Assembly: GCF_002368415.1 (NCBI RefSeq)
Contig: NZ_AP018290.1
Coordinates: 8,051,717-8,115,716, forward strand
DNA length: 64,000 nucleotides
Direction: 5' to 3'
Origin: Calothrix sp. NIES-4105
Lineage (GTDB): Bacteria; Cyanobacteriota; Cyanobacteriia; Cyanobacteriales; Nostocaceae
The notes below the pieces were generated by a model. That model ran no database searches. It worked only from the letters and a program-made list of their open reading frames with translations, and was not told the DNA's origin. Below are positions 574 to 6,543 of this stretch, one piece after another (position 1 is the first letter of the stretch; each line of letters begins with the position of its first letter). The position numbers and the translations under genes were made by a program.

Positions 574-780
574 ACTCTGATTGGCAATACAAAGATGATG
601 ATGTATATGCCGCTATATATCGCCGTGCGGATGGCGCCAATGTTTGTACAGAAGAGCAGAAATTGTCCTTCTGGCAAATAAAAACGTCATCCAACTGCCA
701 CATTTAACTTTACATTCAACGCGCGTGTTCGATTCAGCTATTAATATTGTGAAGTAACTAACCCATGAGGATTATTGGCT
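574..780. other. Intergenic region
   Basis: No convincing gene. One frame from about 579 reads as a short open stretch but has no recognisable family. A GGCGCC site lies near 633. A GAGGA ribosome-binding site at 767-771 precedes the next gene. Confidence 0.5.
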
Positions 781-2412
781 GTGGTGAATTCTGAGGCGCC
801 ATTCACAAGCAAAATTATCAACACTGAAATTGTCGCAGTTACAGTTTACACAGACCAAGCTCTCGTGACACGTCGAGGAAAAATCGAACTATTTGGAGAA
901 GAGCGAGAATTAGTAATTAATAATATACCCGTTACGCTCGATACCGAATCAGTACGAGTAGGAGGTTTCGGTCGGGTTGCTGTGAAAGTAGGCAATGTAA
1001 ATATAGGGCGTGAATATGCTACTGAACCAGTAGAAGCGCGCGTTGCCCAAATTACAACTCATATCGAGCAATTAGAATCAGAACAGAGTTATTTACAAGC
1101 ACAAATCGATGGTTTGGCATTACAAGCGCGATTTATTGAAGGATTACGCGAAAAAACCGAAGAACCATTTGCCCAAAGTCTATCACGCAAAAATCTCAGC
1201 CTGAGTGAAACCCTAGATTTTGTTAATTTTCTTGGTAGTCAATATACAGAATATGGTATTGCGACAAGAGATAGCCAAAATCGTAAACAAGAAATTGACA
1301 AAGAATTACAAGCATTAAAGCAGCAGCTTAAACAAATTCAAACGCCACAACCAAAAGAAAGTTTTAAATTAACAGTAGATATTGAACCTGCGGGTGCAGG
1401 AGAATTTGAGCTAGAAGTAACTTACGTAGTAGACCGTGCTGCATGGGCGCCTTTATATGACGTGCGCGTTAGTAGTACAAATAAAAGCCTTACCCTTAGC
1501 TACATCGCCGAAGTAACACAAAACACAGGTGAAGATTGGAATAATGTAGCGCTAACTTTATCAACAGCCAAACCTGGACTTGGGACACTGCCACCAAAAT
1601 TAGAACCTTGGTATGTAGGAATACGCGAACGACCAATGCCAACAGCAATGAGCATACAAGCAAGCCCACGGCGAATACGGCAACGCGCCTATAATTTAGA
1701 ATTTAGAGATGAAGATAATGAAGATGAATACGATGCAGTGCAAGAAGAAGTGTATATAGAGGCTGAAATAGAAAAAGCCGAAGTCTCAAAAGAGGGAAGC
1801 GTTGTTTCGTTTAAATTAAATAACAGTAGCAACATACCTAATGATGGGGCGCCGCATAAAGTAACAATTTTTAACGAAAATTTTCCTTGTCGTTTTAGTT
1901 ATGTAGCAATGCCACGTAAGGTCAGCTTTGCTTATTTGCAAACCATAGTTAAAAATCCTCCTAATGGAGCTACCATCATACCAGGCAAAGCAAATATTTT
2001 CCGTGATAATGTGTTCGTTGGCACAGCGCAGTTAGACAATGTGGCGCCGGGACAAGAATTTAAAATCAACTTAGGCATTGATGAGAGTATAAAAATCGAG
2101 CGTGACCTAGTAGAACGCCAAGTTGATAAAAAGCTAATTAGCAGTAACCGCAAAATTACTTATGGGTATAGATTAATAATTACTAACTTACTTAACCAAG
2201 AAACAAGTTTAAAACTTAGTGAGCAGATTCCAAAAAGCAAACACGAACAAATCAAGATTTATCTGAGTCGTTCTAATCCACAAATTCAGGTTAGCGAAAT
2301 GGGTATATTAGAATGGGAACTGAGAATGGCGTCGCAATCTAAGCAGGAAATTTACTATCAATTTATTATTGAGTATCCACCACAACTGGATATAGTTGGT
2401 TTAGATATTTAA
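781..2412 (+). CDS. MuiA-family protein (DUF4140/DUF4139)
   Basis: The protein of about 543 residues has the layout of 'mucoidy inhibitor A' family proteins. An N-terminal beta-rich DUF4140-like segment (VTVYTDQALVTRRG) is followed by a charged, Gln/Glu-rich coiled coil around residues 90-195. The rest is a DUF4139-like beta domain (TYVVDRAAWAPLYDVR, then TLSTAKPG). No signal peptide is visible. The role of the family in cyanobacteria is not established. The frame could start at TTG 775, but GAGGA at 767-771 is better spaced for GTG 781. Downstream is a MITE-like palindrome. Confidence 0.8.
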   Translation: MVNSEAPFTSKIINTEIVAVTVYTDQALVTRRGKIELFGEERELVINNIPVTLDTESVRVGGFGRVAVKVGNVNIGREYATEPVEARVAQITTHIEQLESEQSYLQAQIDGLALQARFIEGLREKTEEPFAQSLSRKNLSLSETLDFVNFLGSQYTEYGIATRDSQNRKQEIDKELQALKQQLKQIQTPQPKESFKLTVDIEPAGAGEFELEVTYVVDRAAWAPLYDVRVSSTNKSLTLSYIAEVTQNTGEDWNNVALTLSTAKPGLGTLPPKLEPWYVGIRERPMPTAMSIQASPRRIRQRAYNLEFRDEDNEDEYDAVQEEVYIEAEIEKAEVSKEGSVVSFKLNNSSNIPNDGAPHKVTIFNENFPCRFSYVAMPRKVSFAYLQTIVKNPPNGATIIPGKANIFRDNVFVGTAQLDNVAPGQEFKINLGIDESIKIERDLVERQVDKKLISSNRKITYGYRLIITNLLNQETSLKLSEQIPKSKHEQIKIYLSRSNPQIQVSEMGILEWELRMASQSKQEIYYQFIIEYPPQLDIVGLDI

Positions 2413-2979: not shown

Positions 2980-5094
2980 ATGAATAGTGATAATCCTATT
3001 AAAATCCTGTTTTTAGCATCCGATCCAAGTAACTTTTCTCGACTACGATTGGGGCAAGAGTTGCGTGATATCCAAGAACGACTACAATTAGCACGCTACC
3101 GAGACAAATTTGTGCTAGAGCAAAGGATGTCAGTGCGTTCTGGTGATATAAGTCAGGCAATACTGGATGTTGAACCGCATATTGTACATTTTTCTGGACA
3201 CGGTTTAGACACAGGTGAACTTTGTTTTGAAAATGAATTAGGAAATATGCAGCCTGTAAATCATAAGGCATTAGCTGCGTTATTTGCCCTTTTTGATAAA
3301 CAAGTTAGTTGTGTTATTTTAAATGCTTGTTTTTCCAAAACTCAAGCAAAGGCAATTTCTAAGCATATTGATTTTGTTATTGGAATGAATCGAGAAATTG
3401 GCGATAAGGCAGCATTAACATTTGCTACTGGTTTCTATAAAGCTCTTGCTGCAAAGCGCCCAATAGAGGAAGCTTTTAAATTCGGCTGTGTGGAAATTCA
3501 AATACATAACATTCCAGAACATTTAACTCCTGTTATCTATAAAAAAAAGTATAAAAAGAGTAATTTAGAACAAGTAAAATATACACTAGTATTAAGCGCT
3601 ACTATAGACGAAGTTAATAAGCCAGTTGCAGAAGCGATTATAGCCCATTTACGTCAAATTTCTGGAGATGCATCCTTGACGTTAACAAAGATTGAAGTGG
3701 GTAGTGTAAAGCTTGTTCTACAAGGCTCTCAAGAAGGGTTAGAGCGAATTTTAGCTTTATTAAATGAAGGTGAATTAACTGAAATATTAGGCTTTCCTGT
3801 TGAGGGCGTGCAGGTTTTATCTAGCCAAGAGCTAGCAATTGCAATCTCGCAGCATCAACAAAGGCATAGAATATCTATAAGGGAATCAACACAGTTCGGT
3901 GTTGTTTCACGCGGGCGATATGCTGTTGCCACGCCGACTTTTGATACGCGCAATCTCGCAATGAGTACAATTGCGGAAAAATTGGCAAACGAGTGGCGCT
4001 CGCGGTTAGCTGCCGAATGCCCTGAACAAAGTCAAGTAAATAGAGAAAGTATTGTTGATTGGTTGCTTGGAAGCGAAAGAACGCGCTACAACGAACTAAG
4101 TCATAAAGATTTAGATATTGCCAAGCAAGCAATGGAGTACCGATGGCGAATTTTATACCAGCGCTATTTAGGAAAAAGCCCAAACGTTGCTTTTCGTAAC
4201 TTGATTACTCGCTTGGGTGGACTAGTAAGTTTACGCAATAAAATTCAAACTTGGGTATCATCAAGTGGCGACCGTCAGCGCTCAGTAGTTGACGTGTTAC
4301 AGGAAGTCATTCAAGAGTTGCTGCAAAGCGACAACTATATGCTTTCTCAGATGGCTTTTATCGCTAAGTTTACAAAGGAGCCAAGCTTGAAAAATGCGTT
4401 GCTATTAGCCAGCGTTGAAGAATATTGTCTGCGTCCAATACGTAATCAGCCGCTGTTAGTATATAGATTTGTAAACTATTTACGACGTACTTCGCGTGGA
4501 GGCTTGACACAGGTTCCAACGAGTAATTTGGTAAAATTAGTTTCAGAAGAAGTTTTAACTGATGATACTCATAACCGGGTAAACTTGGCAGATAATCAGG
4601 CAATTGCCGACTATCAAGAAGCTCAAGATTTGGAAGAACAGCAAAGCTTACGAAGCGATGTTAAGCAGGAATTCGAGAACTATCTGAAAGAAAACCTTGG
4701 AGAAGAAGCTGTACAGTGGTTGCGGATGTACTTACAAGGCAAGTCGCAAGATGTCATTGCCAAGGAATTAAATAAACCAATTAAAGAAGTTTATCGACTG
4801 CGAGAAAAAATCAGCTACCATGCTGTACGTGTTTTTGCGCTTAAAAATCAACCTGAACTAGTTGATACTTGGTTAGGAACCTTGCTGACTGAACATAACT
4901 TTGGGTTGACTCCTGCACAGTGGGAGCAGTTGTTAGAAAAAATCACCCCAACCCAAAGACAAATCCTAGAGTTGCGTAAAGCTGGGGAATCTATTGAAGC
5001 TATTGTACCAAAGTTGAAACTCAAAGCGTACCAAGCTATAGGTGAATGGGCAAAAGTTTATTTGGCTGCACAAGAGCTACGAAGCCAAGAGTAA
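2980..5094 (+). CDS. CHAT protease-like / TRADD-N-like / HetZ-family fusion protein
   Basis: The protein has 704 residues in three parts. Residues 1 to about 190 are a CHAT (caspase-like) domain with the His motif HFSGHG at 70-75 and the Cys motif LNACFS at 114-119, so the catalytic dyad (H74, C117) is present. Residues about 195-282 (VLSATIDEVNKP, SGDASLTL) resemble the small TRADD-N-like domain found beside CHAT and other effector domains. Residues about 310-704 match the full length of HetZ or HetZ-related proteins: ESIVDWLLGSERTR, RQRSVVDVLQEVIQELLQSD, RPIRNQPLLVYRFVNYLRR and two C-terminal helix-turn-helix-like segments (about 590-620 and 655-690). HetZ controls early heterocyst differentiation. 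HetF, a CHAT protease, acts in the same pathway. The gene contains no GGCGCC, unlike its neighbours, which suggests later acquisition. The separation of HetZ from HetZ-related paralogues cannot be made by eye. Confidence 0.8.
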   Translation: MNSDNPIKILFLASDPSNFSRLRLGQELRDIQERLQLARYRDKFVLEQRMSVRSGDISQAILDVEPHIVHFSGHGLDTGELCFENELGNMQPVNHKALAALFALFDKQVSCVILNACFSKTQAKAISKHIDFVIGMNREIGDKAALTFATGFYKALAAKRPIEEAFKFGCVEIQIHNIPEHLTPVIYKKKYKKSNLEQVKYTLVLSATIDEVNKPVAEAIIAHLRQISGDASLTLTKIEVGSVKLVLQGSQEGLERILALLNEGELTEILGFPVEGVQVLSSQELAIAISQHQQRHRISIRESTQFGVVSRGRYAVATPTFDTRNLAMSTIAEKLANEWRSRLAAECPEQSQVNRESIVDWLLGSERTRYNELSHKDLDIAKQAMEYRWRILYQRYLGKSPNVAFRNLITRLGGLVSLRNKIQTWVSSSGDRQRSVVDVLQEVIQELLQSDNYMLSQMAFIAKFTKEPSLKNALLLASVEEYCLRPIRNQPLLVYRFVNYLRRTSRGGLTQVPTSNLVKLVSEEVLTDDTHNRVNLADNQAIADYQEAQDLEEQQSLRSDVKQEFENYLKENLGEEAVQWLRMYLQGKSQDVIAKELNKPIKEVYRLREKISYHAVRVFALKNQPELVDTWLGTLLTEHNFGLTPAQWEQLLEKITPTQRQILELRKAGESIEAIVPKLKLKAYQAIGEWAKVYLAAQELRSQE

Positions 5095-5190: not shown

Positions 5191-6543
5191 TTACAATCTA
5201 TATGCTAAAAATGGAATTAACATTTCCGCGCGGCTCAAACCACCGTGAATTCCAACAGGGTAATGTTGTGTATCATTCTCAAAACTAACCCAATCACCTT
5301 TGGGAATAATTATTGCATCACCTAAACGGTTGTAGCTTGATTCGCTTATTTCTTTTCCTGGTAGTCCTAATAAACCAAGTTCTATTGCTTCAGCTTTCGA
5401 CAAAAGCAAAAATTCTTCTGCTAAATGTTGTTGTATATAATCACAAACTTCTTTTTCTTTACCTTTATGAATGTACAGATAGCGCGCTTGAGTTCCTCCT
5501 GTAAATGGAGCAGATAAGTTTTTATTTAAAGTCGGGTGCTTATTCAACCAAATTATTTTATCTGGATGAACCGCGCGCTGACCGTGGTCTGCTGTGATAA
5601 GTAATACAGTATCGTTACGTCCTGCTAATGGCTCAAACACTTCGCGGTAAAGTGAAAAATCAATACTAGCTACTTCTGCTCGGTAGTTTTGACTTAGCGG
5701 TTGATAACAATGGGCAAAAATATCGATTTCAGGAATATATAAATAAGTAAAGCTTTTTACATCTGGAGTCTTACAAAGTAAGCGTTGACGCAGTTGAGAA
5801 AAAGCATCAGCAGGAGTTCGGTAGCCAAAAAAGCTGTTGAGCAGAGCATTGCTGCCAGCACTGGTGAAACGACTGATGCTTGTATTTTGAAATTTGAAGT
5901 AATTAATAATTTCGACATCTAGACCTGACTTTTCCATTAGCAGGTAGATATTGGGTACTGGTAAAAGTGTATCAGGATTGAGTTGAGAATCTAAATAAGG
6001 CGCCGTTGTTGGTGTGAAACTGGGACGAAAGCCAATTAAGTTAACTAAACTACCAACTTCTTGAAAGTATATATGAGTATTAATTAGACCATGTTGAGCA
6101 GGCGCCTGTGCAGTTGCAGCAGAAGTTAGCGCTGTTACAGTTGTAGTCGGAAACACAGAAGTAGCAGGCATAAAAAAAGCCTGCGGTGAATTGCAGGCTT
6201 GAGTTAAGCTTGGTATTACACCTTCATTACTTAACGTTCGGAACTGTTCGTAGCCAAAAGCATCTAAGATGATTAATACTACATGATTGATAGGCGCCTG
6301 ATGCAGCCAGTTTTGCCAAGCATCAGTTAAAGATTTAATTGCTAAGAGTTCAGGATTGAAAGGTGTTAAAGTTTTGTGCGCGCTCAACACACAAGGTTCA
6401 CACAACCAGTCAACCGCTAAAGCTGCAATATTGGAAAGTCCGAGTCCATCGTAACTAGGTTTTAACATCCCCGAAGCTAATGTCTCAGGTAGTTTTTGCC
6501 TTTGTATAAGAGCTTGTTGGGCGTTCTCAATTACTTGATTCAT
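5191..6543 (-). CDS. Alkaline-phosphatase-superfamily phosphodiesterase/nucleotide pyrophosphatase-like protein
   Basis: The 450-residue protein has the type I phosphodiesterase fold signatures. VVLIILDAFG holds the first metal-binding Asp (about D94). FPTTTVTALTS holds the nucleophilic Thr (about 133-135). ITADHGQR holds a second metal ligand set (about residue 315), and GIHGGLS near the C-terminus holds a further His. It likely hydrolyses a phosphate ester. No signal peptide is evident. The substrate is unknown. It is divergent from the SanA-like gene at 6596, with about 50 bp between starts. Confidence 0.8.
   Translation of the reverse strand: MNQVIENAQQALIQRQKLPETLASGMLKPSYDGLGLSNIAALAVDWLCEPCVLSAHKTLTPFNPELLAIKSLTDAWQNWLHQAPINHVVLIILDAFGYEQFRTLSNEGVIPSLTQACNSPQAFFMPATSVFPTTTVTALTSAATAQAPAQHGLINTHIYFQEVGSLVNLIGFRPSFTPTTAPYLDSQLNPDTLLPVPNIYLLMEKSGLDVEIINYFKFQNTSISRFTSAGSNALLNSFFGYRTPADAFSQLRQRLLCKTPDVKSFTYLYIPEIDIFAHCYQPLSQNYRAEVASIDFSLYREVFEPLAGRNDTVLLITADHGQRAVHPDKIIWLNKHPTLNKNLSAPFTGGTQARYLYIHKGKEKEVCDYIQQHLAEEFLLLSKAEAIELGLLGLPGKEISESSYNRLGDAIIIPKGDWVSFENDTQHYPVGIHGGLSRAEMLIPFLAYRL

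Follow-up and report, generated by a model that had tools for sequence, protein, structure and literature searches.

The genome of Calothrix sp. NIES-4105 carries, within the 64-kb stretch of contig NZ_AP018290.1 analyzed here (hereafter the window), a gene that joins a predicted CHAT caspase-like protease domain, a TRADD-like_N (TRADD-N) adaptor domain and a full-length HetZ-related protein 2 (HetZ_rel_2) domain in a single chain. The HetZ_rel_2 part evolves together with the free HetZ_rel_2 gene of the same genome, the same usually holds for related fusions in other genera, and in four relatives the frame is broken at a poly-A tract between CHAT and TRADD-N in a manner that suggests transcriptional slippage. 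We tentatively read the gene, with somewhat less than even confidence, as encoding a single-chain conflict or stress-signalling protein that combines a CHAT protease and a TRADD-N adaptor with a copy of the host's own sigma-like HetZ_rel_2. The arrangement suggests that a self-defence or stress switch is directly coupled to gene control.

Architecture and distribution of the fusion

The gene and its parts are as follows, with residues numbered along the 704-residue protein:

2980–5094 (+): CHAT–TRADD-N–HetZ_rel_2 fusion gene, one open frame of 704 codons with an ATG start
2980–3555 (+): predicted CHAT caspase-like protease domain, residues 1–192
3187–3204 (+): HFSGHG motif, residues 70–75, with the presumed catalytic His (that of GHG, residue 74)
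3319–3336 (+): LNACFS motif, residues 114–119, with the presumed catalytic Cys117
3541–3548 (+): A8 tract at the CHAT/TRADD-N junction, in frame; four relatives have A10–A12 and a frame break at the equivalent place
3631–3813 (+): TRADD-like_N adaptor domain, residues 218–278 (Pfam 57.7 bits, cut-off 23.7)
3817–3938 (+): linker from TRADD-N to HetZ_rel_2, about residues 280–319, of low model confidence, aligning with the linkers of other fusions
3939–5076 (+): stretch matching the genome's free HetZ_rel_2 gene, DNA identity 89.4% over 1138 bases
3988–5085 (+): HetZ-related protein 2 domain, residues 337–702 (NCBIfam NF037965, 592.8 bits, cut-off 400, profile 2–367 of 367)
4909–5088 (+): C-terminal helix bundle, about residues 644–703, with a possible likeness to sigma-70 region 4

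An earlier note, made from the DNA letters, had described the single 704-codon frame, the two motifs with a Cys at residue 117, and a TRADD-N-like domain; the frame, the motif positions and the Pfam score bear this description out. Both motifs of the predicted CHAT catalytic pair are present in the protein, and we take their His and Cys to be catalytic from the CHAT family. The Pfam match to CHAT (PF12770) is above its cut-off (29.9 bits against 24) and partial, covering residues 53–165 and profile positions 131–258 of 289, while the PADLOC chat profile scores 71.3 bits on the same part. The nearest solved relative is the SAVED-CHAT protease 8tl0, both in sequence (phmmer, 8tl0_A, E 1.9e-14) and in fold, where Foldseek places 8tl0_C first (E 1.4e-8) and caspases next. 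TRADD-like_N sits between two other domains, which is the layout of TRADD-N conflict proteins. The predicted structure of the whole chain is weak (mean predicted local distance difference test score, pLDDT, of 65.8), and its low-confidence stretches are the two domain joins, at residues 192–210 and 280–328 (pLDDT below 50 at the latter).

The "complete HetZ-family domain" of the note stands as a full-length family domain, but only as that of HetZ-related protein 2: the profile for HetZ proper (NF037963) scores 76.9 bits on the fusion, below its cut-off of 550 and over a partial alignment (profile 105–365 of 366), and the HetZ_related profile also matches partially, at 64.3 bits against a cut-off of 612. 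By these scores, the part is not the heterocyst regulator HetZ. The 12.0-Mb genome (8 contigs) has HetZ (640.9 bits) and HetZ_related (659.8 bits) as separate genes, one of each, and also a single free HetZ_rel_2.

The combination of CHAT and a complete HetZ-family domain within a single protein recurs in other genera. Using residues 181–353 (173 residues) as a query for the join, we found the TRADD-N–HetZ_rel_2 join with CHAT upstream in 7 of 217 genomes of the family, from six genera, and in one further metagenome-assembled genome (MAG). A scan of named genomes returned 12 loci, seven of them across the join: six in strains that coincide with the other six family genomes, namely Scytonema tolypothrichoides VB-61278, MAG PMM_0069, Iningainema tapete BLCC-T55, Hassallia byssoidea VB512170, Nostoc sp. 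106C and Nostoc sp. FACHB-110, and the seventh (L156) in the Leptolyngbyaceae MAG CSU_1_3, which has a coverage of 2.7. With the window this makes eight distinct fusion loci. A sequencing or assembly error joining two genes is ruled out by in-frame fusions of the same build elsewhere (H. byssoidea VB512170, 72% identical; MAG PMM_0069, 71% identical). Beyond the family, 388 genomes sampled across the order, which did not list the other six fusion genomes, gave no match past query position 134 of 173 besides the window. Among 50,697 phage records there was one weak match, to CHAT only, and plasmids gave matches to the CHAT part, with no record spanning 80% of the fusion protein.

The fused HetZ_rel_2 domain and the host's free copy

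In all five fusions whose genome has a full-length free HetZ_rel_2, that free copy is the nearest in DNA (89.4, 98.3, 92.3, 90.5 and 90.1% identity, against 69–79% for other genera), and fused and free copies therefore evolve together, that is, they are homogenised. For four of the five (the window genome, G148, G163 and G011), a tree of 39 HetZ_rel_2 domains places the fused domain and the free copy of the same genome as starred sisters; in G112, fused and free copies fall in an unresolved genus clade, with its own free copy the closest of nine in DNA (92.3%, next 78.6%). The free copies of G044 are all truncated and its fused domain lies on a long branch, and in the 54% complete genome G135 no free HetZ_rel_2 was found. 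A single clade of the seven fused HetZ_rel_2 domains is rejected (approximately unbiased test, p-AU 8.9e-5), while a single clade of the seven CHAT–TRADD-N parts is not (p 0.10), in a poorly resolved tree where the fusion L159 groups with other CHAT–TRADD-N genes. Our reading of this pattern is one old fusion in which gene conversion from the host's free gene has overwritten the HetZ_rel_2 part time and again. Repeated capture, with an independent re-fusion in each genus, is less likely, because across the join the fusions align with each other and the free copies align only from about the start of HetZ.

The fused part is also under continuing purifying selection. Between fused and own free copies, the ratio of nonsynonymous to synonymous differences per site (pN/pS) is 0.10–0.15 in four pairs, two of which are frame-broken, and 0.32 in G011, a pair with few changes. 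In the window genome, changed codons are 17 nonsynonymous to 30 synonymous in the fused copy and 4 to 29 in the free one. The gene beside the free HetZ_rel_2 (L051, 3477–4670, −) has a weak PilB match of 24.1 bits, for a cut-off of 675.65; as patU lies beside hetZ in Anabaena, our guess is that it encodes a PatU-like protein. Copy number varies elsewhere: in four genomes of family code f18 there are five HetZ_rel_2 copies (G332 and G377, each), four (G344) and three (G356), against one in most genomes listed.

Other fusions of HetZ_rel_2 are among the matches listed. The G143 protein has HetZ_rel_2 behind a domain whose counterpart in Nostoc sp. KVJ20 (L161; 72% identity over 243 residues) stands ahead of a caspase of 72.3 bits. 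Its gene closes an operon that also contains genes for caspase, iSTAND, AAA/MoxR-type and VWA_CoxE proteins, each scoring above the Pfam cut-off. This fusion of HetZ_rel_2 to a component of a vWA-MoxR conflict operon lends indirect support to the earlier suggestion of a link to phage or stress sensing. In G070 and G112, HetZ_rel_2 is fused behind a TPR protein, and the neighboring gene matches AAA_16 weakly; this arrangement may be a conflict system as well.

CHAT–TRADD-N is combined with receiver and histidine-kinase parts in L124, and similarly in L163, L164 and L089. The window's own genome additionally encodes an EAD1–TRADD-N–sigma protein of 535 codons (L050, 4240–5844, −; G000:C3:152.4–153.9 kb), with scores of 83.2 bits for EAD1, 44.2 for TRADD-N and 44.1 for sigma70-ECF (extracytoplasmic function), another link between TRADD-N and transcription. 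The same 366-kb contig C3 holds twelve CHAT-part matches at 1.3–69 kb, eight with internal stops, i.e. CHAT genes and debris, and a long open frame resembling RNA polymerase beta-prime as judged by eye (L050, 3–3152, −).

These findings bear on an integrated decoy, an alternative that we consider unlikely. Here, the fused HetZ_rel_2 would serve as bait for an invader protein directed at the host's HetZ_rel_2, by attack or by binding; the fused copy would be hit as well, which would trigger CHAT, and likeness to the host copy would be selected. Homogenisation with each host's free copy would fit this well, as would the finding that this host protein has repeatedly and independently been joined to other partners, one of them in a conflict operon, and the presence of a CHAT or caspase domain as a possible killer. 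Yet the HetZ_rel_2 of G143 occupies the effector place, where Nostoc sp. KVJ20 has its caspase, gene conversion between near-identical copies is possible without any selection for likeness, and we know of no invader protein that acts on HetZ_rel_2, which also counts against a decoy.

Frame breaks at the poly-A tract and turnover of the locus

In four of the eight fusion loci, TRADD-N–HetZ_rel_2 lies in another frame than CHAT, the break falling at a tract of A10 (L154, L159 and L160) or A12 (L157). The window (A8) and L155 and L158 (both A6) are in frame; L156, from the low-coverage MAG, is in frame at its A9 tract but broken at a T9 tract within CHAT, so that five of the eight loci carry a frame break. 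In the four loci broken at the A-tract, this tract is the sole break between the CHAT start and the HetZ stop, and the CHAT frame ends 3 to 16 codons past the tract start, with the downstream frame overlapping. Over 15 CHAT–TRADD-N junctions, the frame is lost at 5 of 6 tracts of at least 9 and at none of the 9 shorter tracts (Fisher p 0.002, with relatedness ignored). One of these five is L089 (G076, from the window's genus), which is broken at an A9 junction and once more within CHAT, and has a histidine kinase instead of HetZ at its C-terminus. The window's A8 tract was rejected as evidence when taken alone, as the 64 kb hold four A runs and six T runs of eight or more.

Both sides of the break appear constrained. 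CHAT and TRADD-N are free of stops in all seven loci tested, and over all pairs pN/pS is 0.14–0.32 for CHAT and 0.34–0.50 for TRADD-N plus linker, with synonymous sites near saturation in many pairs. The HetZ parts behind the break have pN/pS values against their own free copies of 0.10 in G148 and 0.14 in G163, with nonsynonymous to synonymous changes of 7:20 in the fused part and 7:17 in the free copy in G148, and of 6:15 and 6:20 in G163. A long A/T tract at a frame change with constraint on both sides, the pattern of a slippage gene, is thus found in four of the eight loci, the window locus being without a frame change.

Since the downstream part is still under purifying selection despite the frame break, the sequences suggest transcriptional slippage at the A-tract, which fits best, with phase variation by DNA slippage a close second. 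Ribosomal −1 frameshifting is less likely, because both frame phases occur among the breaks and the RNA folds are not unusually stable: five 100-base stretches from the tract were no stabler than their shuffles (z −0.09, 1.01, 1.07, 1.05 and 2.08). The breaks could also be younger than the divergence of fused and free copies. A comparable case is described in part of PMC4256274, where an A11 tract before a stop in tssM of Citrobacter rodentium leads by transcriptional slippage to short and full-length forms whose ratio matters; a poly-A tract at a frame change is common to both, whereas slippage at the fusion loci is predicted from sequence.

The fusion has a shared site, but the gene comes and goes. 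The flanking genes in the window are:

775–2412 (+): MuiA family gene (TIGR02231, 519.9 bits, cut-off 112.6), upstream neighbor of the fusion
5191–6543 (−): phosphatase-like gene with a weak PhnA match, adjoining muiA in same-genus genomes without the fusion

We base this on muiA being immediately upstream in five of the eight loci (the window, L154, L158, L159 and L160), on the empty sites of same-genus genomes, where in six of six cases muiA and the phosphatase-like gene are direct neighbors and nothing between them matches CHAT, TRADD-N or HetZ, and on G070, where a HetZ remnant in three frames follows muiA. In the remaining loci, muiA is 3.4 kb away (L157), present as a C-terminal piece only (L156) or not seen within 5.4 kb upstream (L155). 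No STAND NTPase or EACC2-caspase gene, a neighbor known for some but not all TRADD-N conflict proteins, stands beside the window's fusion, the flanks being MuiA and the weak PhnA match, with nearby open reading frames judged by eye and not all scanned. The earlier note had also pointed to the absence of GGCGCC from the gene. There are indeed 0 sites where 3.6 would be expected from the density (108 in 64 kb), but this contrast carries little weight, because the genome's free HetZ_rel_2 gene has 0 sites too, and the absence was dropped as a sign of foreign origin. Against the 108 GGCGCC sites of the window, HIP1 (GCGATCGC) occurs 0 times in it; same-genus stretches give 0.7–2.4 per kb and two stretches of genus g22 give 0.

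Such turnover could mean that the fusion is neutral or decaying, with the locus dying around a HetZ_rel_2 part that gene conversion preserves, and with inactivating mutations behind the A-tract breaks. The frame breaks in five of eight loci, the three-frame remnant in G070, the empty sites and the faster evolution of the window's fused copy than of its free copy (17:30 against 4:29) all agree with this. We nevertheless judge it quite unlikely: CHAT and TRADD-N lie outside the converted part and are stop-free and constrained, the HetZ parts behind the break in G148 and G163 are as constrained as the free copies, and in four loci the tract is the only break from the CHAT start to the HetZ stop.

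HetF is a CHAT protease. As a further alternative, the gene might be a developmental protease-regulator that serves cell differentiation much as HetF and HetZ-PatU3 do. The homology to HetZ speaks for this, as does what is described in part of PMC7377430, namely that HetZ drives promoters with the DIF1 motif and that PatU3 binds HetZ. The domain is, however, HetZ_rel_2, which 275 genomes in a 368-genome sample of the order contain, with many families beyond that of the window represented; the fusion is rare, unlike a core developmental gene; and HetZ and HetZ_related are encoded separately in the genome, so that we find this reading very unlikely. To our knowledge, all heterocyst formers belong to the window's GTDB family. 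The link to differentiation raised in the earlier note is unsupported, because HetZ_rel_2 is not confined to this family, and its parallel with HetF, PatU3 and HetZ is best taken as an analogy. Least probable of all is that the frame-broken relatives hold two overlapping genes, CHAT and a TRADD-N–HetZ_rel_2 gene with its own start, of which the in-frame copies would be secondary joins: the end of CHAT 3 to 16 codons past the tract start, with an overlapping downstream frame, would allow it, but no ATG or GTG precedes TRADD-N in the downstream frame in any of the four broken loci (the first lies 43 to 241 codons in), and the start-like codons nearby are TTG in three loci and CTG in one, L160 having nothing but ATC.

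Proposed mechanism and comparison with known systems

The HetZ family resembles sigma-70 factors in sequence and possibly in fold. Aligned with hhalign against sigma alignments of the same genome, the family reaches probabilities of 91.6 and 92.9%, over regions 2 and 4, with reversed and shuffled controls at 0.3% at most; HetZ_rel_2 alone reaches 53.0 and 42.9%, over region 4 only, and the sigma-70 profile TIGR02937 scores 26.2 bits on the fusion, below its cut-off of 42.9. The resemblance leads directly to a hypothesis on which factor reads the HetZ-dependent DIF1 promoters (PMC7377430, in part), whose motif lies at −35 according to part of PMC6133370: if the HetZ family are sigma factors, HetZ would be the missing recognition factor of these promoters, with their motif at −35 and unusual −10.

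For the conflict or stress-signalling protein that we tentatively propose, a trigger would lead TRADD-N to gather chains and so activate CHAT, which might then cut its own chain at a flexible linker, or cut another protein. The HetZ_rel_2 part could subsequently work with or against the free HetZ_rel_2 at the same promoters and so change transcription. In the four relatives, slippage of RNA polymerase at the poly-A tract would set the ratio of CHAT alone to the full-length fusion, and the tract would be a possible expression switch, while the window copy, with A8, would make the full-length chain directly. A bolder version, which we regard as doubtful, is that the HetZ family are divergent sigma factors and that in several cyanobacteria a copy of the host's own HetZ_rel_2 has repeatedly become wired to conflict proteins; an alarm raised by an invader or by stress would then release or sequester a host sigma factor, gene conversion would keep the wired copy functionally identical, and poly-A slippage would set whether the protease is made with or without HetZ_rel_2. 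If our proposal is true, a bacterial protease module of the death or defence type has been built into one chain with a host transcription regulator that is itself widespread, the fused copy being kept in step with the host gene, and both the effect of firing cyanobacterial TRADD-N systems and the mode of action of HetZ-family proteins become testable.

Among the papers searched, none joins HetZ, CHAT and TRADD-N, with at most two of the three occurring together. In Anabaena PCC 7120, a protease and a HetZ-family protein likewise share one regulatory setting, and the review PMC12288457 describes, in the part that covers them, binding of PatU3 to HetZ and says of HetF that it "could degrade" PatU3 (see also PMC7377430, in part); there, however, the genes are separate and the protein is HetZ, whereas the fusion is one gene with HetZ_rel_2. 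The SAVED-CHAT protease 8tl0 resembles the CHAT part, the fusion having TRADD-N and HetZ_rel_2 where 8tl0 has SAVED. The vWA-MoxR ternary systems (Kaur et al. 2020, PMC7159879, in part) are matched by the G143 operon, while the window gene is without such neighbors. Closest in layout are the TRADD-N conflict proteins (Kaur et al. 2021, PMC8195603, in part), in which TRADD-N sits between variable N- and C-terminal domains, with caspase N-termini, ECF-like helix-turn-helix (HTH) domains and C-terminal HTH domains among them, and for which a transcriptional response was proposed. HetZ, and CHAT as a word, each occur 0 times in the text of PMC8195603, and neither homogenisation with a host regulator nor a poly-A frame break, both features of the fusion, appears in its section 9. 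TRADD-N proteins with caspase or HTH partners are hence already known, and the surprising parts of the fusion are its homogenisation with a host gene and its A-tract.
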